A stretch of 64,000 nt of DNA from Norana najaformis. Lineage: Eukaryota; Annelida; Clitellata; Crassiclitellata; Hormogastridae. Shown here in pieces: positions 7,801-55,300 of the stretch; position 1 is the first letter of the stretch, and every line of letters starts with the position of its first letter. The translations under genes and the position numbers were made by a program. The notes beneath the pieces were generated by a model. It searched no databases. It saw only the letters and a program-made list of their open reading frames with translations, and was not told where the DNA came from. The DNA is taken from assembly GCA_964023275.1 (NCBI GenBank), contig OZ029915.1:21170775-21234774 (forward strand). The letters are read 5' to 3'.

Positions 7801-9590
7801 GTTGAAAGAAATAAAGACTTATTTATTTTAAACGAATTCCAAAATAAATCTTAAAAACATTTGAAACAAACTAAACCATACCAAACAACAACTTTAATAT
7901 AAAACTATCACGTAATTCAGGTACTAATTAAGTTGAATTATCATTATGAATGAAACCTAAATCTAAGCCTTTTGGCCTGTCCACCGCATCATTTAATCTA
8001 CTCGCATTGTGTAGCATTGTATACCGGATTTCATATTTATGAAGTAAACAAGTAATCGACAAGGGACGACTTTCGACGAGGATACATAACTGGCAATATT
8101 ATGGTTATTATTATCGACGCAGACTTTGTTCCGATAGTTCCAGAAGATTAAAGCACCACACAAAATTGTCGCTGATTGTTTGGTCCAGGAAATGAAAGGT
8201 TCTCTTCTCTTCTCAAATGGACCGAAAAGTCATGATAAAAAGCCAAATTTAACGTAAGCAAAGTCTCCAAGCATAAATTTTTATTTGCAGGTTGGTTTAG
8301 TGTTTCCGTCCGTTGGTTGTGTCCGTTCATCGTGCGTGAATGATACAGATTTTTGCGACAACTGCCTTTGATTATATGCAAAGCCATGCAATATAATGCA
8401 ATCTAACAAGTTGCATGACAGTACAGTATAATATTGTATGATAAAGTTTCAATCACATATCATAACACAATGTAATGTAATACAATACAATACTTACTTA
8501 CTACTTACTACAATACTTTTGTAAGATGATGTATCGGAACAAAATCAGTCTTAGAAATTATTGGTTATGTGACTTTAATGGCAAATCTAAGATAGTATTT
8601 GTACGACCGCAGATCGCAGACATTGTTGATTTACGAGACAAATATTTTCTTGTAAGGTCGCATTGACTGGCTTATGCTGTTTGACAGTTGTTATTCATCA
8701 CCGTCATCGTCGTCGTCGTCGTCGTCATCATCAACATCTTCTTCATCATCAGTTCCTGAAGCCAGTCATTTCGTGGCGATGGGTACGAATGAATGACCTC
8801 CATTTTTTTCGATCATTTAACTGGTCCAGTGCTCTTTCGTGTCTAATCAAAGTCTTGTTGTGTTTTCGTTTATACTGTCTGTCTAGCGCTATGCTTCTCC
8901 TTTCTTCAACGCCTTCTGTGGAATTCGGTTAACAAACATTCCTCACATATGACCAAACCATCGGACTGAACGACTTTATTTCTGTTTATTCGGTTTATGT
9001 GTTTAAAATGTGTATCGCAACGAATGTTCTGCATCCGTAGACAGTTCATGCCTATATGAGCAATCTGGATACACAATTTTGTCAGTATGTAGGTGGGTGT
9101 AGACCAGCGCCTGCATTGTGAGGTAGTCTATAGCAGCGGATCAACGTGCACCGGGCGTCCAACATGCGTCCAGCTGACTATGGCTCTATTAAGGCAACTC
9201 TCATGCAACATCATCATCGCCCGAGGCATGACGCGGCTGTTGCTATTGCCAAATGCAAACCCAGTCCGTGACAGCGACGGCGCTCTCGTGTTCATTGCCA
9301 GTGGCAGAGTTCGCCTGAAGAGAAAGCGCTCATGACGAGACACACACACAGCCTCTATTCTTCCAGCGTTAAAGAATCAGGAGGCGTTAAGGAAACTGCG
9401 AGGACAAACATGCTCTCGTTTTCACTTTTACTTTGCTGCTTCTCTTTTCCATTCGTTCTGTTAGTTTTTTCTACCTACTAACCTGCTTATATTTCTTCAT
9501 GCTTAGTTTTGTCAGTCTATCATCTGTCTATCAAAATACTATTCTATCTACCTATCTCTCTGCATGTCTGTCTGTCAGTCTGTCAATCTA
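4860..9590. other. Intergenic, no gene recognised
   Basis: Nothing in this 4.7-kb stretch could be assigned to a gene or a named element. Small simple repeats are present (ATAC-rich near 8475-8515, CGTCAT-rich at 8695-8750). Reading frames at 5330-5587, 6096-6353 and 9093-9335 are open, but show no family motif and no convincing splice context. Confidence 0.45.
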
Positions 9591-9593
9591 TCC

Positions 9594-9636
<43 letters not shown>

Positions 9637-10136
9637 CATCCATCTATCCATCCATCCATCCATCCATCCATCCATCCATCCATCCATCCATCCATCCATC
9701 CATCCATCCATCCATCCATCCATCCATCCATCCATCCATCCATCCATCCATCCATCCATCCATCCATCCATCCATCCATCCATCCATCCATCCATCCATC
9801 CATCCATCCATCCATCCATCCATCCATCCATCCATCCATCCATCCATCCATCCATCCATCCATCCATCCATCCATCCATCCATCCATCCATCCATCCATC
9901 CATCCATCCATCCATCCATCCATCCATCCATCCATCCATCCATCCATCCATCCATCCATCCATCCATCCATCCATCCATCCATCCATCCATCCATCCATC
10001 CATCCATCCATCCATCCATCCATCCATCCATCCATCCATCCATCCATCCATCCATCCATCCATCCATCCATCCATCCATCCATCCATCCATCCATCCATC
10101 TATCTATCCATCTATCTATCCATCTATCTATCTATA
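9590..10136. repeat. Very long (CATC)n tetranucleotide microsatellite
   Basis: A CTAT-rich left edge (about 9590-9648) leads into about 450 bp of uninterrupted CATC (about 9649-10100, around 113 units) and then a mixed CATC/TATC right edge to about 10136. All six reading frames through it are open, which generates artefactual Ile-His-Pro-Ser and Met-Asp-Gly-Trp repeat proteins. It is not a gene. Confidence 0.97.
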
Positions 10137-23514: not shown

Positions 23515-24115
23515 AGGGTTTTGCATTATTTGTCACCTGGTAATAATTAATCGCCACAACTCATTTCATTACCATTTGGCATTAATTTATTGCTACGATA
23601 GTTGTTAACTGATTACTACACGATAATTACCATCACCTGTTAATTGCCATTACGTGTTAATTACTTGATCATGTGTGTTATTTAATTGCCAGTAGTTCAA
23701 TTAATTGTCATTAGTTGCTAATGACTTGCAACTTGGTGTTAAATAATTACCCCAAATGGCTAATTTTCTATCATTTGGTTTTAATTCATTAGTTGCTATC
23801 AGATGCTAATCAACTGCCACTAGGTGTTAATAGTATGTGTTAACTGTCTGTCACAAGTGCTAGTTAAATGCCACTAGTTGTTAATTACAACAATTTGCTA
23901 ATTAATTACCACTGAGTATAAGCTAATAGTCAACAGTTAATTATTATCACTAGGTGTTAATTCATTGTTAGTGTGCCAATCATTTGTCACTAAATGCCAC
24001 TAGATGTTAATTACAACAATTTGCTAATTAATATTGCCATTGAGTACAAACTAAAAATCACATGTTAATTATTGCCACTAGATGTTAATTAATCAGCGCC
24101 AGATGTTGTCGCTGT
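23515..24115. repeat. Degenerate TTAATT-rich array upstream of the GPCR
   Basis: For about 600 bp, variants of GCCACTAGGTGTTAATTA and CAACAATTTGCTAATTAATT recur, first loosely and then more regularly towards the right. The best preserved units are near 23870-23915 and 23998-24030, with spacing of roughly 20-40 bp. It ends only a few bases before the GPCR start codon. It is therefore either a minisatellite that invaded the 5' flank or untranslated/promoter sequence grown by tandem duplication. Confidence 0.75.
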
Positions 24116-24121
24116 CATAGG

Positions 24122-25435
24122 ATGCCTTCGAATGCAGTTGTGTCGATTGTGCATCAGCTGACGTCTGAAACTGACCTGGAGTCAGGTGTCATGGTTGCTC
24201 TGGGGATCAACGTGTCCCTCGACGTTTACCAGGTGCCGTCCATGTCGTCGCCTGAGGCTGCAGAGGACGATGATGCCGTGAAGCTGAGCATTGAGATGTT
24301 CACCGTTGGCACCGTTCTCTGTCTCATCATCATCTTCACTCTCCTTGGCAACGGCCTCGTCGTCGGAGCCGTTCTCTTCTTTCGTCGCCTGCGGTCCATC
24401 ACTAACTACTTCGTCGTGTCCTTGGCCGTTGCTGACCTGACAGTGGCCGTCCTTGTTATGCCCTTCTCAGTGATCTACGAAATGACCGGTCGATGGACGT
24501 TCAGCTGGATCGTCTGCTACTTCTGGATCTCATGTGACGTCATGTGCTGTACGTCATCGATCCTGCACCTGTGCGTCATTGCCATTGACCGCTACCTGGC
24601 CATCACCGAGCCACTGACCTACACCGGACGCATGTCCAGTCGGCGGGCAGCGCTGGTCATCGGTGCCGTCTGGACGTGCAGCGCCGCTATCTCGTTCGTG
24701 CCCATCTTCACAGGTTGGTTCGCCGACCTGACCCTCATGACCTTGTACGAGGATTCGCGTGACTGCGGCCTACACGTCAACCCGATCTACGCGGTCGTCT
24801 CTTCGGGAACGTCCTTCTATCTGCCGCTCAGTGTCATGGCCCTCGTCTACGCCCGTATATTCCACATCGCCAGGCATCAGTCGAAGGAGATTCGCAAACT
24901 GGAGGACTCACTGGACCGAGACGAAACCAGTCGAGAACAGAGGAGAGCCGCCCGGCGCAACAGTCGCGACTCGAAGGCCGTCAAGACCCTTGGTACTCTG
25001 ATGGGTCTCTTCTGCCTCTCGTGGCTGCCGTTCTTCGTCGTCTACGTCGTCAAGCCCTTCTGCCAGCGTTGTGCCTTTCCACCGGCGCTCATCTCCGTCA
25101 TCACGTGGCTCGGCTATTGCAACAGTTTCTTCAACCCGTGCGTCTACGCGCTCATCAACCGCGACTTCCGGTTCGCCTACAAGAGCATCCTTCTGTGCCA
25201 GAGGTCAATGCAGGGGTCACGGCACAGGACGATTCTAGTGGCACAAAGAGACGCTGACAGAGTGAATGGCTACAGCGGAGATAGAGAAGGAAGTGGCGCT
25301 CAAGGAAGTGGAGGAGGAGGAAGCGGCAGAAAAATCGGAGAAGGAGGAGGAGGAGGACACGCCTCAAAGTCAGCTCTGAATCCAAGAGACATTTACGAAC
25401 TAGAATTACAATCAATCGAAGCCCGAGCTAGTTAA
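24122..25435 (+). CDS. Aminergic GPCR (octopamine-beta / D1 / 5-HT4-like)
   Basis: A 437-residue class A receptor in one uninterrupted exon. A 57-residue N-terminus with an NVS sequon (residues 30-32) precedes seven hydrophobic helices. Key residues: N77 (TM1), D105 in LAVADL (TM2), C132 paired with C215, D139 in TM3 (the amine-binding aspartate), DRY at 156-158, TM5 serines 227, 228 and 231 before P235, WLPFF at 301-305 (S300 replaces the usual Cys before Trp), and NPxxY at 338-342. C359 is a likely palmitoylation site. The short third intracellular loop and long tail (glycine-rich, about 386-410) suggest Gs coupling. The SFVPIFTGW stretch recalls octopamine-beta and 5-HT4 receptors, so the exact ligand is unsettled. 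Codons strongly favour G/C endings, unlike the flanks. The CATAG just before the ATG could be a splice acceptor, so an upstream non-coding exon is possible. Alternative starts are M24 and M41. Confidence 0.95.
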   Translation: MPSNAVVSIVHQLTSETDLESGVMVALGINVSLDVYQVPSMSSPEAAEDDDAVKLSIEMFTVGTVLCLIIIFTLLGNGLVVGAVLFFRRLRSITNYFVVSLAVADLTVAVLVMPFSVIYEMTGRWTFSWIVCYFWISCDVMCCTSSILHLCVIAIDRYLAITEPLTYTGRMSSRRAALVIGAVWTCSAAISFVPIFTGWFADLTLMTLYEDSRDCGLHVNPIYAVVSSGTSFYLPLSVMALVYARIFHIARHQSKEIRKLEDSLDRDETSREQRRAARRNSRDSKAVKTLGTLMGLFCLSWLPFFVVYVVKPFCQRCAFPPALISVITWLGYCNSFFNPCVYALINRDFRFAYKSILLCQRSMQGSRHRTILVAQRDADRVNGYSGDREGSGAQGSGGGGSGRKIGEGGGGGHASKSALNPRDIYELELQSIEARAS

Positions 25436-29764: not shown

Positions 29765-30640
29765 ACATATTAATTATCGTCATTGTGTGAAGTTTTCCTT
29801 AATTAAATGAATTCAAATTAATAATCACTATTGTGTGACGTTTTCCCTCAACACAACCAAATTAATAATCGCCATTGTCTGATTTTTCCTGTAAACACAA
29901 TCATACCAATAATCCTCATTGTGCGACGTTTTCTAGAAACAAAGTCCAATTAATAATCTGCATTGTGTTTCGTTTTCTTTAATTAAACAATAAAGTTAAT
30001 AATCGCCATTGTGTGACGTTTTCTTTCAACATAATTAGAGTAATAATCGCCACTGTGTGACGTTTTCTTGAAACAATATCAAATTAATAATCTGCATTGT
30101 GTGACGTTTTCTTTATTTAAACAATAAAATTAATAATCGCTATTGTGTGACGTTTTCTTTCAACAGAATCAAATTAATAATCGCCGTTGTGTGACGTTTT
30201 CCTATACACAAAAGTAATCGCCATTGTGTGACGTTTTCTGTAAACAAAAAGTAATAGTCGCCATTGTGTGACGTTTTCTGAAACATAATCAAAGTAATAA
30301 TCGTCATTGTGTGGTGTCTTCTTTCAACACAGTCAAAGTAGTGATCGCCATTGTGTGACGTTTTCTGTAAACAAAAAGTAGTAATCGCCATTGTGTGACG
30401 TTTTCTTTCAACACAATCTCATTAATAATAGCCATTGTATGACGTTTTGTGTTAACAGAATAAAATTAGTAATCGCCGTTGTGTGACATTTTCTTTAATT
30501 AAACACAATAATCGCTATTGTTTGACGTTTTCTTGAAATGCAATCATTAATAATCGGCATTGTGAGACGTTTTCTGGAAACAAAATCAAATTGATAATCG
30601 CCCTTGTTTGACGTTTTCTTTAAAGCAGTCTTTTGAAACC
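29765..30640. repeat. Minisatellite, about twenty ~42-bp units
   Basis: A tandem array whose units share AATAATCGCCATTGTGTGACG, then a TTTTCTTT and AACA-rich stretch. Units vary from about 33 to 58 bp, and the AT spacer changes more than the GCCATTGTGTGACGTTTTC core. The preserved core contains CCATTGT (SOX-like) and TGACGT (CREB/ATF half-site-like) words. The spacing and unit variation exclude a CRISPR array, and the host is eukaryotic. Confidence 0.93.
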
Positions 30641-33204: not shown

Positions 33205-35640
33205 AAAATATGGATTGCTGCCTTCATGTTAGCGGCTGGACAGCTTATAAAGCGCTAGTTAATGAAACTTAATGCACCACAAAAGCGCTAATAGCAGTTG
33301 GCTCAGTCCGATGACAAGAAAATGTGAGTCTTCAACTTCTTCCGAGAGCATTCAATGGAGAGATCCGGTGTTCGTAGTTCGGTCGGTAGCGCGTTCCACA
33401 CCATAGGGCCGGATACGCCAAATGTTCTTGTGTGCGCCACAGTGGCCCTTCCAGACCATACCAGATCGTAGCTCCGTGCAGAGCGAAACCGAGACCGACC
33501 AGGGACCGAAGAAGCTGGAACGCAGTCGCGTGACAAATATGGGGGCGCCAATCCGTGTAGGCACTTGTAAACTAGTATCGCCACTTTGAATGTAATCCTT
33601 TTGCGGACAGGCAACCAGTGTAGATCTTGTAGAACAGAGGTTATGTGTTCGAACCTCCGAACCCCAGCAACCAACCTCGCAGCAGCATTCTGTATGCCTT
33701 GCAGCTTCCTAAGTAGCCCGCGGCTAATGCCGTATAGCAGGCTGTTGCAGTAGTCTAGCCGACTACCGATGAAAGCGCAGGCGAGGCTCTTCCTTGAGTC
33801 GGGTGACAGCGACGACCGAATCTGTCCCAGCTGCCGCAGCTCGAAATAACATTTCTTGCAGATGTTGGCCACATGGTCCCTCATCGTAAGCTCCCAGTCT
33901 ATTATTACTCCCAGGTCAGTGAAGCACACTGATCTTCGCCGTGTCCAACTGATGTCTCGTACCAATCAAAACAAGCTGTGTCTTGTCCACGTTCATCCTC
34001 AGTCGATTTCTACACATCCAGTCATCAATACATGCGACACAATCGGTGAAACGTTGAACGGCCGCCGAAGTATCTAGGGCCGGGGAATTGATGTAGATCT
34101 GAGTGTCGTCGGCGTAGCAATACGCTGTCAAACCCTTGCTCTCGACTACGTCCAAAATCTCGGCTGTGTAAAGGAGGAATAGCAGCGGGCCCAGAGAGGA
34201 TCCTTGAGGAACGCCACAATCCAGATGGGCTATTGATGACAGAGTACCTCGAAAATGAACATGCTGTGTTCGACCGGTCACGAAGGACGTTAACCACCGT
34301 AGCGCTGTCCCACCGATGCCGTGCCACTCGTGGATCGACGTAATAGGATGTCGTAGTCGACCGTATCGAAGGCTGCGCTAAGATCTAGCAGGCCAAGGAG
34401 GGTAACCCGTCAGTCATCTATCGCACGCAGCAGGTCGGACAGAATACGTAAGAGGGATGTTTCAGTAGAGTGGTTACGTCTATAAGCAGACTGTAATCTC
34501 GGCATCAAATTGTTGGATTGTAGGTAGTCAGTGAGTTGCTCAGATACCAGACGTTCAACCACTTTTGACATGAATATTAGATTAGAGACTGGTCTGTAGT
34601 TGTTGTATTCATCCGCAGCTAACGACGACTTCTTTAGAAAGGGGTGACTATTGCGTGTCGCTGATCAACTGGCAGATGGCCGCTGAGAAGTGAGGCATTA
34701 CAAATGGCCACCAAGAACGGCAGCAAGGCGTCAATGGACTCCTTGAGGAGAAATGTAGGTATAGGGTCAAGCGAGCAAGACTTACTGGGTGACCTCATGA
34801 TGATCCAACGAATATCCTCAGGGGAACAAGCGCGGAAATCTTTTATGACAGAAGGGGAACAGATGCTAAAATCCGGGGCTGGGCAGCCAGCCGTGTCGGC
34901 CCTGATGGATGCCACCCTATCAGCAATAAACCTCAAGAAGCCGCCGGCAATGAGCGCTGTCGGTTGAGTCACTCCTTCACCGGCGGGCTTGTTTCGTTTC
35001 AGTAGTTTAGACAGAGAGCTCCGAAGTTTGGAGGGCCTGCGCGCTCAGAGGCAATTCGTCGGCTCCAGTAATGAATCTCCTTCAGCTTAAAATCTGAATG
35101 CTTTCTTCGGACTGCCTTGATCCACTCCAGCCTGTCTTGGCTAGTTTTTGACTTCTGGTGTCTGCAGTTCCGCCTGATCATTCGACATTCAGCGTCGAAC
35201 CAAGGAGATAACGGTCGAGCTCGAGTCTTAACAGTATGAGCCGGAGCGAATCGATCGCCAGGTCACGGAGCGTAGAGTCGTATATATGGAAGAGCTCCGA
35301 AGCGTCTGTGGAAGAGGGTTGAGCACCCAACGGACCGCCTCTGCTGGCTTCCATGAATGCAGTCCGGTCAACAAGACTCCAACTCCGAACAGATTTGGTC
35401 GCAGAGTGCCCGAGGCGAAGACACCTAGGAAGACGACATGTGATCATTCCGTGATCAGAGATCATGTCAGGAGGGTAGACGTGGACGTCAGTGACGACCT
35501 CGTCTGAGAAAGTAATGACCACGTCCAGAGTACCGCCCAGTATGTGAGTCGCTCCGCTAATATGCTGAATCATGCCAAGGCTTAATGTAACGTAAATGTA
35601 GGAAACGTCACAGTTTGAGAATACACAATAGAATGGAGAA
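33205..35640 (-). mobile_element. Long CR1-like LINE with endonuclease and RT remains
   Basis: Read on the minus strand, this is the most complete LINE in the window. From 35580 down: the end of an exonuclease/endonuclease/phosphatase domain (HILGGTLDVVI, then SDHGMITCRL with the catalytic SDH), a linker (about 35160-34980), an SLDPIPTFLLKE segment opening the RT, a damaged RT core (34630-34290), then CGVPQGSSLGPLLF with YADD at about 34150 in the open stretch 34281-33916. A frameshift near 33930 leads into the long frame 33965-33303, with NAAARLV, LHWLPVRKRI and VWNALPTELR. The 3' end (about 33300-33205) contains AGCGCTTTATAAGC. The catalytic motifs are intact, but several frame breaks and the missing 5' part mean it is not autonomous. 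Confidence 0.88.
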
Positions 35641-38600
35641 TAATAGAAATGACACGTAGGCCTACAACAGAAATTCAAATGCCAAAAGCCTTTAAAACCT
35701 GAGAGGCGGATTCTATGGGTTTTGGGCGTATTGAACGTAAGCCCTACCTACAACAATCCACCAATCTTCCTGGTAACAATCCCCTCGCTCCAGCTGTCAA
35801 CTATTGAAATAGAAACTCATCTCCTCCTTAGGATGTTACTGTGTATTCTCGGATTCCCCTCTTGGCTTTCGACCTGCTCAACCTGAAATTTGGCTTGCAC
35901 GACGATTTTGCTTAGTGCAGCGGCAGTGTTTACTACTACCTCTAGACTAACCTGCTACAGTAGGCTATGTATGTATGTATGTATGTATGTATGTATGTAT
36001 GTATGTATGTATGTATCGAACGAGTGAAACCTTTGATCATGTTTCCATTTTCCGGCGTGAATAAGGCTAATAAATAAAAATGGCAGTTTTCGCTCAGTAA
36101 TGTAGAAATGCAGCTAGGTGTAAAGGCATATTACACCTATAGTTGCAATTGTTTTGGCATTCAAAGAGGCATAAGCTGCAGTTTGAAGTAATCGCTTTCA
36201 AATGCACAACGGAAACAAATGCGTCGCCACTATCGCTGATCGATCGATCGATTCTTCTGACAGGCAATAAACAACGACTTGGTTGGGTAACTTCGGTCGT
36301 CTGTCAGTCGTCTGTATCGACCTCCCCCCTTTGGCCGCTTGCTTCGCTTTGCGTCGTCACGATGGTTCATGAAGTAGGCATTGTAGTTGATAAGCTAATG
36401 TTTTAAAGGAATTCGACAAACTGAGTCACAATCAGGAAACAGATTATCCTCGATCACAAGTACAAAAGCCAAGTAACTGACCTCAAGTCCATCTAATCTA
36501 AAACTCTTTCTCATACGTTGCACGCCGAAGTCTCTTCAAAGGCGCCGCTGCAACTGTTTCTGCCTATGTGTTTGTCTCTCTGTTTATCTGTTCCTCTGTC
36601 TCTCTGTATGCCTATCTATCGGTTTGTTTGTCTTTGTCTGTCTGTCTCTCCGGCTGTCTCTCTCTTTATCCTTATCTTGGTCTCCCTATCTTGTTTTTTT
36701 CTGTGGGTCTTTCTGTCTGTCAATCGAAGTGTATTGGCAAAAACGCACAACAGTTGAAAACCGCCTGTCACAAGGACAGACACAGACTATGTGTAGGCCC
36801 CATCTGTGACCGACTTTTTGTTTTTCTATATGTCTCTCATGCCTCTTTGTTCCAAATCGAGGTGACAGCAGAACAAACAGTATTAGCAGTAGTACAAAGG
36901 GTTAAAATAATAATTGTTATGTGATGCTGGTGATGCTGATGTTGTTGTTGCTGACGCTGGTGTTCGTGATGATGTCCACTTGTTTCAGCCTCCGTAGTGT
37001 CACGAAACGACGTGTAGCACCGATGGAGTGGATATTGATGCCATTCATGGCCTTTTGTAGAAGCCTGATTGAATTGTAGATTTGATGAGGAAAATGATGG
37101 GATCTAAGGGGGCGTTCACCTCTTCTTTCGAGTCGAGAACACAGGCGCTCGCACAAATGAGTCAGAGACGCAGGGACGACGGTTCTGTTTTACTCAATAT
37201 CTCTTGTCGCAATTGGTTTCATACGGCAATTGTCACAGACCTCAAAGTACTTGACTCAACTGCATCTTGGTCAGTAAATGTTGCATGAGTCTGTGCAATA
37301 CATCGTCATAGCTGCATTGTCGTTTAATACAGAATACGTCGCTGGCAGACAGCACTTTTATGTGCACCCTTACGAACGCAGACGGACAAAGACATTCAAG
37401 CAGACAATGCACACAGCTTCGATCATGCAAGTCAGTTGTTGTCAGTTCCAAAAGAATGTCTACGCAATGAAAACAACAGTTGCAAAATGCATCGACAGTC
37501 AATGCAACGACCAGCATGAATACTTAGATCAGAATGTTCTGTATAAGTCAATATATATATAACAACCATGAACAATAACTGTATATGTTTTATATATGAG
37601 TGATATATGGATATGAATATATAAGCCACATATCTTCATCATGATCACTGCCAATTTCTGACGCCAGCCATACTGCTGCGATGAGTGCGAATGACCGATT
37701 AAACAAACGACTGCGCATATAGCTACCACTGATTACATCGTACCGTTCATAAGGCCTCTGTATATAAATATAAATATATATATTCACGGTATATATTTTA
37801 TATAATACAACTGAATATTGACCACTTTGGAGATTTCATTCAAGATGGTCAATTTATTCATTGCCATATATAAATTTATATATATATATATATTGGAGTT
37901 TAAGCACTGACTTCAACTAGTATATGCGTGTGCGTGTGTGTGTGGATGTGGGTGTGCGCGTGGCTTGGCAGCATTAAATTTTGCATTTGGCTGTATAGTG
38001 TATAGAACACATGTAATTTCAAACGTCATCGGCTGTGTTTTGTCGACTTGTAAGTCAGACGTGTTTGCAGATATAATAAATATATATACATATATATATA
38101 TTTCGTGCCGAATGAACGTTCTGTCTGGGTTTTCGCATCTTTTTCTCATCAATCGATGGTCAGCAGGTGCGTGCTGAACATCTGATGCTTGGTGACTGCA
38201 CTCGGCTGACCACTGAACTAATCAACATCAATCTCCTTCAATGATTGCATCTCTCGGTCTCTGAGCTGCGCCGACCAGTATATTCATCTGGGGCTGGACG
38301 ATGAACAGGAATTCCATGGATGCCAATCTAAGTGTAGAGGTCGCATCAAACGTCTACAGTTGTTGGATTGCTATAGGCGGGTTTGCACTTCAGCGGAAAG
38401 ATCTTTCAAACCCTGAATAGTTTCTACAGAGGCGTACCAGTTAGAAAAGAACAATTGATTGTTTGAGCTATAGTAGTAAAGCTTTAAGATGCATGGTAGG
38501 TCCAGCTAAATACGGATCTATACCATCTTAACCAGCACTGTGCGTGGCTCTAAATAAATATGGCAAGACAATAGGTTCCTCAGCTGATGTGGGACTTAAA

Positions 38601-44500: not shown

Positions 44501-47500
44501 ATTAAACTATTTCTGTGGTGTTTCAAGCAGTAGAAACTCATTCTGACCATGCCTTGTGAAAGATCTTCAGCATTAGCCTGTCAGAAATGGGCATCTTTAG
44601 ACCAGTTGAAATCGATGCATGGTTGTGTGTTCTCTGCATGTAAGTGGTGTGATGAATTACACTGGCCAACACATAATTTGTTGCCTCAAATGTTAGAACT
44701 GTTTCTGGGTATATTTGACCTGCTGATTCCAGAAAAGGCCCCAGTTTTCTCCCAGCAGGTCTAGTTTTCGAGATATAGAACATTATGCCATATACCAGTC
44801 CTTGCCTCTGCTCGCCCATAAAACGTAAGGCTATAGCTATAATTATGTAGTGCTCAATTTATTATGTGATACACTAAATAAACATAATAATACAAATACT
44901 TAAAAGAAAATGGTAGTACCTGAAACTGTACTTATATGATACCAAACAGAACAAGTTTGTTATAAAAATTTCAAGTCGTTCGACACCGAAGAAGCTCCTT
45001 TTGTACGATTTCCGAGTGTGGCATCTGCCGGAACAATCGCGCATAATATTCCAGCAATAGTCTGCCATCATGTGTGCATCCCATCTTCCTTGATATCGAT
45101 TTTCCATTGTTTTGATGTCTTGGTGAAATCTTTCACCTTGCTCTTCGCTGAAGTCACCAAGATTCTGTGGAAAGCGATCTAAGTGACTGTGGAGATAATG
45201 GACTTTAATGCTCATGTTGCAGCCAAGCTTGTTGAAATGAAGAAGCATATCCTCTACTAGTTGTGCATGATTGTCTGCCTTCTTGTTGCCAAGAAAATTT
45301 TTAGTTACAAGAACAAAGGAAGACCAGGCACAAGATTCAATTTCATTCATTGATGGTATGAAAAGTGGGTCATTCATAAGTTGCCTGATCTGTGGACCAT
45401 CGAAGATTCCAGCCTTCAATTTTTCCATTGTAATTCCTGGTAACTTGTGTACTATGTATTCGAAGCATGAACCTTCTTTATTCAAAGCCCTGACAAATTG
45501 TTTCATCAGGCCTAGCTTTATATGTAGTGGTGGCATTATGATCCTATCTCGTGCCACCAAAGATTCCTTGATTACATTTTGAGCTCCAACCACCATGTCT
45601 TTCCTCGAAGGCCAATCTTTTCTTGTCCAATGTTCATGCTTGGCTCTACTGTCCCAAAGACACAAAAAGCAGGGATACTTTGTGTAGCCACTTTGTTGAC
45701 CAAGGAGGAAATTTACCATCTTCAAGTCTACACAAATTACCCATTGATGTTCTTTGTATTTTATCTTTTCCAGTACTAAAGAGATGGCATTGTACTCTTC
45801 TTTCATCCTGGTGGAGTGACCGATTGGAATAGAACCAAATTTGTTGCCGTTATTTAAAAGCACACATTTCAGACTACGTTTTGAACTGTCGATAAAAAGA
45901 CGCCACTCATCTGGGCTGTAATCCGACAGACCAATTTTCTTCAATAAGTTGCTGATGTCATTACAGAATACTAGGTTGTTGTCTTCGGTAAAGAATGGCA
46001 GCAAATCCTTTTCTCTGTTTCTATAAATTGTAATTTTCGTTCCAGGCTGAAGTGCATTCTTTTCCTTTAGTCTGGACGCAAGCAATTCAGAGGACTCTTT
46101 GGAAAGATTTAAGTCCCTGATCAGATCACTCAACTCTTTTTTGGTCAAAACGTTCACTGTGTGAAGTTGATTGGAAATCACTGTCACTGCCCCCATTTTC
46201 TTCACTTTCGTCATCTTGTCCGATATTGGACATGCAAGTCTCATCGTCTGAGAGCTGAGGTAGTTCGCGAAAAGGTGGAACTGGTACAATATCCGAATGC
46301 GGAACAGGTCTCCTGGCTGAAGGTATATCAGGGTAAGACAACTTGTGACGATTATTTCGATTGATGCCTATGATATTAACCATACAAAAGTAACAGTCGT
46401 CGAAGTGGTTTATCTGTTCCCTCCAAACCATCGGTACACCAAATTTCAGGCAGCTTCTCTTTCCAATTGTCCAGTGGCGCAATTGTTCAATACAAGTTTT
46501 GCATACTGTATGAGGAGCCCATTGCTTATCTTGATCTCCAAGTTTGACACCAAAATAACCTACATATGCTCTTTTTACAAACTCAGAAATCGGTTTCCTG
46601 TTTGCTTTTAGTGTGTATTCCCCACAAATGTAGCAGAATATGTCTGGATGGTTAATGCAGCTTCGTCTGGAAGTAGCCATAACCTTAAGGATGTTCGCAT
46701 CTGAGGAATTAAATGACTAACCTAAAAAATAGTAAGAACATGTAGTTATTTAATGCTCACATTCACAGATTGTTCTTGCGACCAACTCTTAATATGCCCT
46801 AAGACGACTGCGGCTGCTCTAGCTTTCAGGAGGCGGTTTATATAGGCTATAAATGCTGACTTCAGCATAATCTATTTACATAGTTCGAAACCATGAAACG
46901 CTGTATAAGCACAAATAAATTCTAAATGAGGCCATGAATTTAGTGCTGAGTAAGCTGTAGGCTACGGAATAGTTATTTCGTTGAATCAGCAATATCTCAG
47001 CACGCGGCAAGATATGCTGATTTTACATTATAAGGATGTAGGCATTATATGAATCAGCAAGAATTATAATTAGCCATAAATAAAGCTTATTATGACATTT
47101 TAGTTTGCCAAAGACATCGTTTAAAGAGTGGACTGGGTTTTCTTTACAAAATCGACGATATCTCAGAAACTAGACCTGATGCACTCAATCCAATGACATT
47201 TTCTGAATCAGCGCCCAAAATTACCCCAAGAACAGGTCTAAAACCGAAGGCAACAAGAAAAAAAAATTTTTCTGTTGGCCAGTGTTATCCATGAGGGATT
47301 ACATGTTTCACTTCTTTTTCTTCAAAAATGCTGACCATTGACGTGGTTCAATGTATGTTAGGTATGTATGGGAGCAAAGTTTTGATTGAAACAAATGCAG
47401 AGCTGGGTTGTGATTGAAACAGATACAATGCTGCTTTTCTAATCCACTTGTGCCTGTTGTGGTACCCCATTATCTAAGATATTTAATGTTATTTGTATGA

Positions 47501-52338: not shown

Positions 52339-55300
52339 TCAGAGCACACATTTGTATTTGCATGCAAACATGATCCATGTTGCACAAACGCATTCTGGAT
52401 ATGTATAGATGCGGACACGAAGTGCCATTCGCATGTGGTCTCCGCGACAGTTGATGATCTCTTCACAAACAGGATACCTAAAAACCAGACAGGCAAAGAG
52501 CAGGTTACATGAAACTGCACTTCGTTAAAGAAACTTGTTATTACACTCTACATAAATTTATGTGCATGTAACATTATCAACATATAAGACTGATTGAATG
52601 AGCTGATTCAACTTAGCCTAATACATGCCAAAGAACGGTGCTATAGCACTGACTGGGTTTTGAAACTACAAACTGATATCAAGTGTCTTTATATTAAATA
52701 ATAATGTATCATGGTTATTTTCTTTATTCATTATTTTAAGCAACATTTATTTTTAAAAATATTTACTGTCTTAATGCTAATAATAAACAAGCTTAATGAT
52801 AATGTCTTAATGCTAATAATAAACAAGCTTAATGACTGTTACACATTCACATAACCAAGTTCTGTACTCGATTATATTTTGACTGAAAGTTTTGAAAAAA
52901 TGCACCATTACTGCCATGAAACATTGCTATGCATTGACAAAATATTTTTGACTTGTGCATGCCCTTTGTAAGCTTCTGGAAGTGCCAGCAGCTGTATGAG
53001 TGGGGAATAATTTTCCTTTTTAAAGGGTGGACTGCATCATTGGCCTTGGGGAATAGATGCTTCATGTCACCCATGGAGATACTGATACTAACCTAAGGCA
53101 ACCATAGAAAGCTCGACGTGCATTTCTGTGCACAAACTGAACAGGATAGCCTTTGAAAGTGTGACCATCAGGCACATTTCTTCGAATTGCTTGCTGGAAT
53201 TCCTCGTTACCAGCAGTCACACCTGCAACCATTTGCCAACAGCATACAGTATCAAAATGGCAAACAGTTCCTCAATCCCACAGCTCACGACAGCAATTCA
53301 GACTGCATAAATAAAAAAGACTATATAAATAAATGCAGTTATAACCACTGAGTGCAACTTCAAGTTTAAACTAATTTGGAATCATCCATACAGGATGACA
53401 AATGGCCATACAAATGGCCCCTTTAGACCTCTCCCTCCCTCATTTGCATTTGGGTGCCCCTCTCACATCCCTTTGCAGATTCTGCACTCCAATGGAGTAC
53501 CAGTTTAGGATATCCTATTAAACTTCCAGGGTTAATTGTGCTGTGGGGTACTTTGATGCTGCTGAATCCAGCAAAGGAATTAGATCCAATGTGGTACAGA
53601 CTGTCTGTCTGACTGGAATCGGCATTTAAGGCACAGGCTGAAATAACAGAAATAACTTATGCTAATTTAGAAGTGGACATCTGCAATGGGCACAACCCCT
53701 CCCCTTGTCTGCATTTGGGTTACCCATCTCTTCCCATATTTGATGCTGGTGTCCCTTATGGGCGACCCCTGTAAGGGTTTCTGTAAGTTGCCAACAAACT
53801 GACAGGCACTCCATGGATATAGTGATCTAGCAATGCCATCTGATGAAGTTATTTTGCACAGTCACAATATTCTGTCTGTTTTTACTTTTAACTGACCTTT
53901 GTGAATAAATGCAATGATCTACCTGTCAGACGCTCTGTTTCGTAGGCTGAAAGTGCAGGTGTTAGTAGATAACTCAGATGATCATCCCAAACTGTTGTCA
54001 AACCTTGATCCTTCAAAATTCAACAAAATACATACTGTATTAAAATTGACAAGCATTACATTATGGTCGATTGTTTCTTTCACTTATAAAATTTATACAG
54101 TGCCACTCTCTAATAAAGAGGCATCAGCTGATGGCACTGATCAATTATGTGCCAAGAACTTGCTCAAGACCATTACAGAATGATCGTCTCGAGAAAGAAG
54201 AAAGACTCGAAACTGCACATTCCATGTCATAAGGCAGGCAGTCAAATCACCCACTCAATAATAACATAATTATAACAATTAGCAACTTCTATAGTGCCAG
54301 TGAAATAATTCACAAGGAATCAACCAATAGCACACCAAAACCAAGCTGTAGTCAGGTAAATACCAGAAAGTTAGTCCACTGATTCCAGTGTCACAGGTGA
54401 TGCTTATAAAAGATGACAAACACAATGCAAAAGATGACAATTCCCTCTGTAGAACAAAAAAGTTACCAGTATTGTGAACAATAACCTATACATATAAAAG
54501 GCTAAGATAAGCTGAGATGTCTTACACGTCGATGTTCTGTGACAAGTACACGTAGTTCTTGTTCTATTTCACTACTGATAAGACTGGCATCCAAAAGAGA
54601 AGGACAGAGTGGAGGAAGAGCTGGCCGGCTGGATCCTGATCCCGGGCCACAAACAGATTGGATAGCATCTTCAGACATGGCCTTCCAACGAGACTCATCG
54701 CGCAAGTCAAACACACACAACTCCACAAGGTCTGTCGGCTAAAAAACCAGATATACCTCAACAGTGCATTTCATCACACAAATCAAACGCTTGGCCACAA
54801 CTTCCAAGATCTGTTGGCCAGTTGTCAGATAAACTGTTCAATCAAATGCTTCTTCTCTAGTACTGGATGACTGTCATCTTTGAAACCTATGGCAGATGCA
54901 AGGAAAGCTTGTAAAAACACATCCAATGCTCATAAATATGATACTTGAATGCTCTGTTAATATTCGTTATCTACCAGCATTAACTTTGCTGTTATCCATA
55001 TCATGCATAAGTAAGAGCTAACCTGTGAATTTGCGTACAGAGCCGCATTGTTAAAAACACATCCAATGGTTCTGTAAGGATAAGGTGGTTTGGGTTGAGC
55101 ATCTAAAGGAGGATCGTTTGGGTTAACTGGGAAATGGGTGTACCTGTCCAAAACAAAAATAACACATGTTTCAAAAATCGGTAAGAAATATCATGTCAGT
55201 ATCAATCTATGATTACAAAACAGTCTGTAATTACCAAGGGCAGATCTAGGGAGGAACAGGAGGCCATGGACCACTGTTGTTTGCTGTCTTGGAATGGAAG

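Follow-up and report, generated by a model that had tools for sequence, protein, structure and literature searches.

What kind of sequence occupies positions 44657–47287 of a 64,000-nucleotide stretch of the genome of the annelid Norana najaformis (assembly GCA_964023275.1, contig OZ029915.1, forward-strand positions 21,170,775 to 21,234,774; hereafter the window), where perfect inverted ends enclose a coding region? A preliminary description made from the letters of this stretch saw there an intact-looking CACTA-like transposon and considered its protein as the transposase of an animal CMC lineage. Our analyses indicate, by matching features, that the element very probably belongs to the Chapaev3 group (CMC or CMCT clade) of cut-and-paste DNA transposons. 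Its family has multiplied very recently in the host, where unbroken frames and exact ends occur in dozens of copies that mostly diverge by less than 1%. The element is ordinary in type and notable for this recent multiplication, and the copy in the window is damaged. The ends, the 3-bp duplications proper to individual copies and the predicted DDE core support the idea of an animal CMC transposase, and that lineage is already known from published work on Chapaev3, which describes the same features (PMC4079192, PMC4411706).

The element spans positions 44660–47284 (2,625 bp). It is bounded by CACTGGCCAACA (44660–44671, + strand) and TGTTGGCCAGTG (47273–47284, − strand), a perfect 12-bp inverted pair, and outside these lie TTA at 44657–44659, preceded by A, and an identical TTA at 47285–47287, followed by T (neither assigned to a strand); the inverted pair and the two TTA are as originally described. 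Among the 62 perfect 12-bp inverted pairs lying 0.5–6 kb apart in the whole window, only this one (44660/47284) has matching 3-bp flanks; the five bases on either side, AATTA to the left and TTATC to the right, are unequal. The end sequence reads CACTGG, compatible with CACTR. Further inside, local alignment of the left (44659–44801, + strand) and right (47130–47285, − strand) subterminal regions recovers the additional imperfect inverted similarity that had been estimated at about 130 bp, here over about 145/158 bp and with a score of 85, the highest score among 1,987 random pairs being 63. Blastn detected no further copies of the element within the window, the remaining matches being 13–32 bases long. 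A 13-mer identical to the right end (54810–54822) was dropped, with an E value of 6.

In the host assembly (608 Mb, 17 contigs), a search with the element gave 40 scored places among 1,286 candidates (of the 39 lying outside the window, 35 were fetched), and a search with the protein scored 77 places of 6,426 candidates, from which 20 were fetched, all of them new relative to the first set. Together with the window copy, 56 copies were examined with their flanks. Both exact 12-bp ends occur in 43 of them (28/36 in the first set, 15/20 in the second), and similarity between copies ends exactly at CACTGG/CCAGTG: mean identity in the first set is 99.6% and 89% over the 40 bp inside the two ends and 28% over the 40 bp outside. 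Once the copies lacking both exact ends are set aside (8/36 and 5/20), equal 3-bp flanks are present in 32 of 43 copies (74%; 20/28 in the first set and 12/15 in the second); as expected, most copies thus carry a 3-bp duplication of their own. Control 3-mers taken 10 bp further outward are equal in 0/28 and 3/15 copies, and a stricter control that compares the left flank of one copy with the right flank of another, thereby allowing for a shared target preference, gives 532 equal pairs out of 1,806 (29%). The equal flanks read TTA in 15 copies, TAA in 11, ATA in three, CTA in two and TTG in one (26/32 being TTA or TAA). The preferred target is A-TWA-T, with A before the flank in 35 of 43 copies and T after it in 40.

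The 11 copies with unequal flanks are of several sorts. Five (L010, L035, L036, L057 and L059) agree after skipping two extra bases at the left end; other left offsets of 1–8 bases produce a match in 0–2 of the 11. Four (L009, L030, L043 and L045) combine a TTA flank with a TAA flank, the middle base being different, a mixture that could come from recombination between copies or from the repair of mismatched bases in the stagger. The remaining two are L014 and L032. No empty site was found in a search of the host genome with the joined flanks of one copy, L041, the single match being the site of that copy. A long inverted repeat surrounds L041, which occupies its loop, and the repeat spanning the junction of L033 is an ATT microsatellite. 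An apparent shorter form of the element (query 1031–2631) was rejected as an artefact of the way in which the search trims its candidates, since 15 of the 20 such loci that were fetched have both exact ends and the other five continue well beyond the apparent limit.

The age of the family can be read from 27 copies with both ends, after exclusion of L009 and of the eight copies without both exact ends. They differ pairwise by a median of 0.57% (range 0 to 1.26%), a value biased downward because these copies are the best matches to the window, and 157 of their 178 variable columns are singletons. This star-like pattern of divergence points to a recent burst of the family in its host. Despite the bias of the divergence sample, unbroken copies are similarly abundant in the protein search, where 74 of 77 places have no stop and three have one; the second set of copies came from these protein matches and hence favours unbroken frames.

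The coding region of the window copy is not the single long minus-strand protein that had been described, nor is this copy intact. It is split over two open frames of the minus strand, one for the N-terminal part of the transposase (46126–46716, the methionine of relatives lying at 46678–46680) and one for the catalytic part (44874–46367), which are in different reading frames and correspond to the N- and C-terminal portions of a single protein in relatives. The closest relative among the matches listed, P0003 (567 amino acids), spans both frames and is 97% identical over the matching 78% of the second, homology starting at its residue 182 and running from 46136 down to 44979; the window frame extends 34 residues beyond the C-terminus of P0003. 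Because P0003 reads through both frames, the reading frame of the window copy is broken (46126–46165, − strand), at or near the 6-base homopolymer at 46137–46142 within that interval, as a result of either a mutation or an assembly error. Between the zinc region and the SEEQGERFH stretch, the frame is unbroken in 27 of 36 copies (window included), the window copy being one of the nine broken ones.

The catalytic motifs, all on the minus strand, are numbered here after P0003, with conservation counted over the 90 database rows of A1. The proposed catalytic aspartates, D264 (45888–45890) and D318 (45726–45728), are each conserved in 90/90 and match those of FIDSSKRSL and ICVDLKM singled out in the preliminary description. 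The C(2)C motif (C337 and C340, 45660–45671), the LH motif (L385-H386, 45522–45527) and the H(4)H motif (H494 and H499, 45183–45200) likewise have every residue conserved in 90/90. The third catalytic residue is placed within SEEQGERFHQD, as had been anticipated; we infer E516 (45132–45134; 89/90) as the preferred candidate over the alternative E513 (45141–45143; 90/90). All these residues are present in the window copy. The predicted model of P0003 has the RNase-H-like DDE core of RAG1 and Transib, in line with the fold that the preliminary description implied, and the distance from D318 to C337, 19 residues, is that from D708 to C727 in RAG1. A PDB search with the whole-protein profile returned no chain up to E 10, and hhalign gave no meaningful alignment between the family profile and mouse RAG1 fragments; the link with RAG1 therefore rests on fold and on the order and spacing of motifs. 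Pfam and NCBIfam scans of the tested proteins gave no family above threshold.

Relatives of this transposase number 2,428 at E 0.001, of which 120 were listed. Those with a name among the matches listed belong to the beetles Pyrocoelia, Callosobruchus, Aromia and Onthophagus, the psyllid Diaphorina and the worm lizard Rhineura, besides one record labelled as a Pseudomonadota metagenome bin, which is probably a contamination. Every one of them is labelled as uncharacterised, hypothetical or unnamed, and the Chapaev3 identity provides a name for this protein family. Scans of viral contigs and of genome contigs for relatives found none, and four peptides of the transposase family had no match in the literature text searched.

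Since every published Chapaev3 feature tested was found in the element, it is most likely a Chapaev3 transposon. Chapaev3 transposons are said to have been described by Kapitonov and Jurka in 2008. It is very unlikely that we are dealing instead with an EnSpm/CACTA element proper, the ends of which are usually CACTA, compared with CACTGG in the window. EnSpm elements do also have CAC..GTG ends and 3-bp duplications, and the entire CMCT clade has the C(2)C and H(3-4)H motifs (PMC12730594). By contrast, the published Chapaev3 set comprises the A-TWA-T target, a transposase length of about 560 amino acids and C(2)C combined with LH and H(4)H, and in it CAC/GTG ends and TWA duplications between A and T accompany these three motifs (PMC4079192). 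A Transib-type element near RAG1 is less probable still, identity with HzTransib being 15% over 350 residues. Transib duplicates 5 bp of its target, whereas here the flanks agree over 5 bp in two of 43 copies, compared with 32 that agree over 3 bp. Chapaev3, named in a 2008 Repbase report cited by PMC4411706, has been united with Transib in one superfamily but as a separate clade beside it (PMC4411706), and it has also been placed within Chapaev in the CMCT clade (PMC12730594). Least probable of all is a host gene or domesticated transposase with coincidental inverted ends, a reading that could draw on the uninformative labels of the named relatives and that conflicts with the many near-identical dispersed copies stopping at the same base and, for the most part, having equal 3-bp flanks.

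The N-terminal part of the Chapaev3-like transposase contains a zinc-finger-like region with conserved Cys and His residues (46384–46635, − strand). This Cys/His-rich domain is well predicted and may correspond to the N-terminal Chapa zinc-finger domain of Chapaev3. In Pfam, fold and profile comparisons, each giving a weak signal, part of it resembles the treble clef of ZAD (zf-AD, PF07776), a domain found at the N-terminus of insect ZAD-C2H2 transcription factors. Pfam matches to zf-AD were obtained for 14 of 22 members (best E 5.6e-05), with bit scores, where shown, of 18.5, 16.5, 15.3, 16.0 and 18.6 (that of the member with the best E not among them), all below the Pfam gathering cut-off of 28. 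Because FYVE is matched as well (11 of 22 members, best E 0.0012), and the N-terminal profile searched against the PDB matched no ZAD chains and the FYVE domain alone (E 0.053), the likeness to ZAD may be a treble clef shared without homology. A protein search from one ZAD found three proteins, too few to build a profile. True homology would bear on the origin of the insect ZAD transcription factors, and this resemblance is the sole lead with possible weight beyond transposon annotation.

If it acts as RAG1 and Transib do, the transposase would pair as a dimer on the ends, of about 150 bp, its two aspartates and one glutamate would cut adjacent to CAC/GTG, and the ends would be inserted into target DNA at positions staggered by 3 nt, generating the TWA duplication. 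Excision may, by the same analogy, leave hairpins on the flanks, and the N-terminal zinc domain may serve in dimerisation or end binding. Even with its broken frame, the window copy could still be moved in trans by unbroken copies. The biology of Chapaev transposons was called largely uncharacterised in 2014 (PMC4079192), and an active Chapaev3 could be sought among the natural copies of this host family.

Several other features occur in the window. An uninterrupted frame of 448 amino acids (24089–25435, + strand) matches the rhodopsin-family G-protein-coupled receptors (PF00001, E 7.9e-69). The several fragmentary open frames at 33303–35747 (− strand) probably represent a broken retroelement, since one of them (33916–34377) matches RVT_1 (E 3.2e-15) and the frames lie in pieces. 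A tandem array at 29769–30624 contains about 20 copies of a 44-bp unit, with a second period call of 134 bp, and an ATCC microsatellite of 547 bp occupies 9586–10132 (about 137 units, 98% matches).

How does the element compare with known systems? Chapaev3 transposases have a catalytic core in common with the V(D)J recombinase (RAG1), here as judged from the predicted fold. Identity to RAG1-like chains and HzTransib is 9–15% in structural alignments, and the RAG1/HzTransib system differs from the element in duplicating 5 bp instead of 3 and in having another N-terminal zinc region. The named Chapaev3 families are Merrow, Garfield and Conan, with hosts that include insects, lampreys, fishes, a lizard, a tenrec and a bracovirus; full-length Garfield_BM and Merrow_PM/LC encode transposases of 556–562 amino acids within elements of 2,289–2,455 bp (PMC4079192). 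At 2,625 bp the window element is longer than these and, unlike Merrow and Garfield with their two exons, has its coding part in one exon. With Merrow, Garfield and Conan, compared by description only, it shares the CAC...GTG ends, the TWA duplication between A and T and the C(2)C, LH and H(4)H motifs, to which a similar transposase length and the occurrence in both insects and vertebrates add further likeness to Chapaev3.
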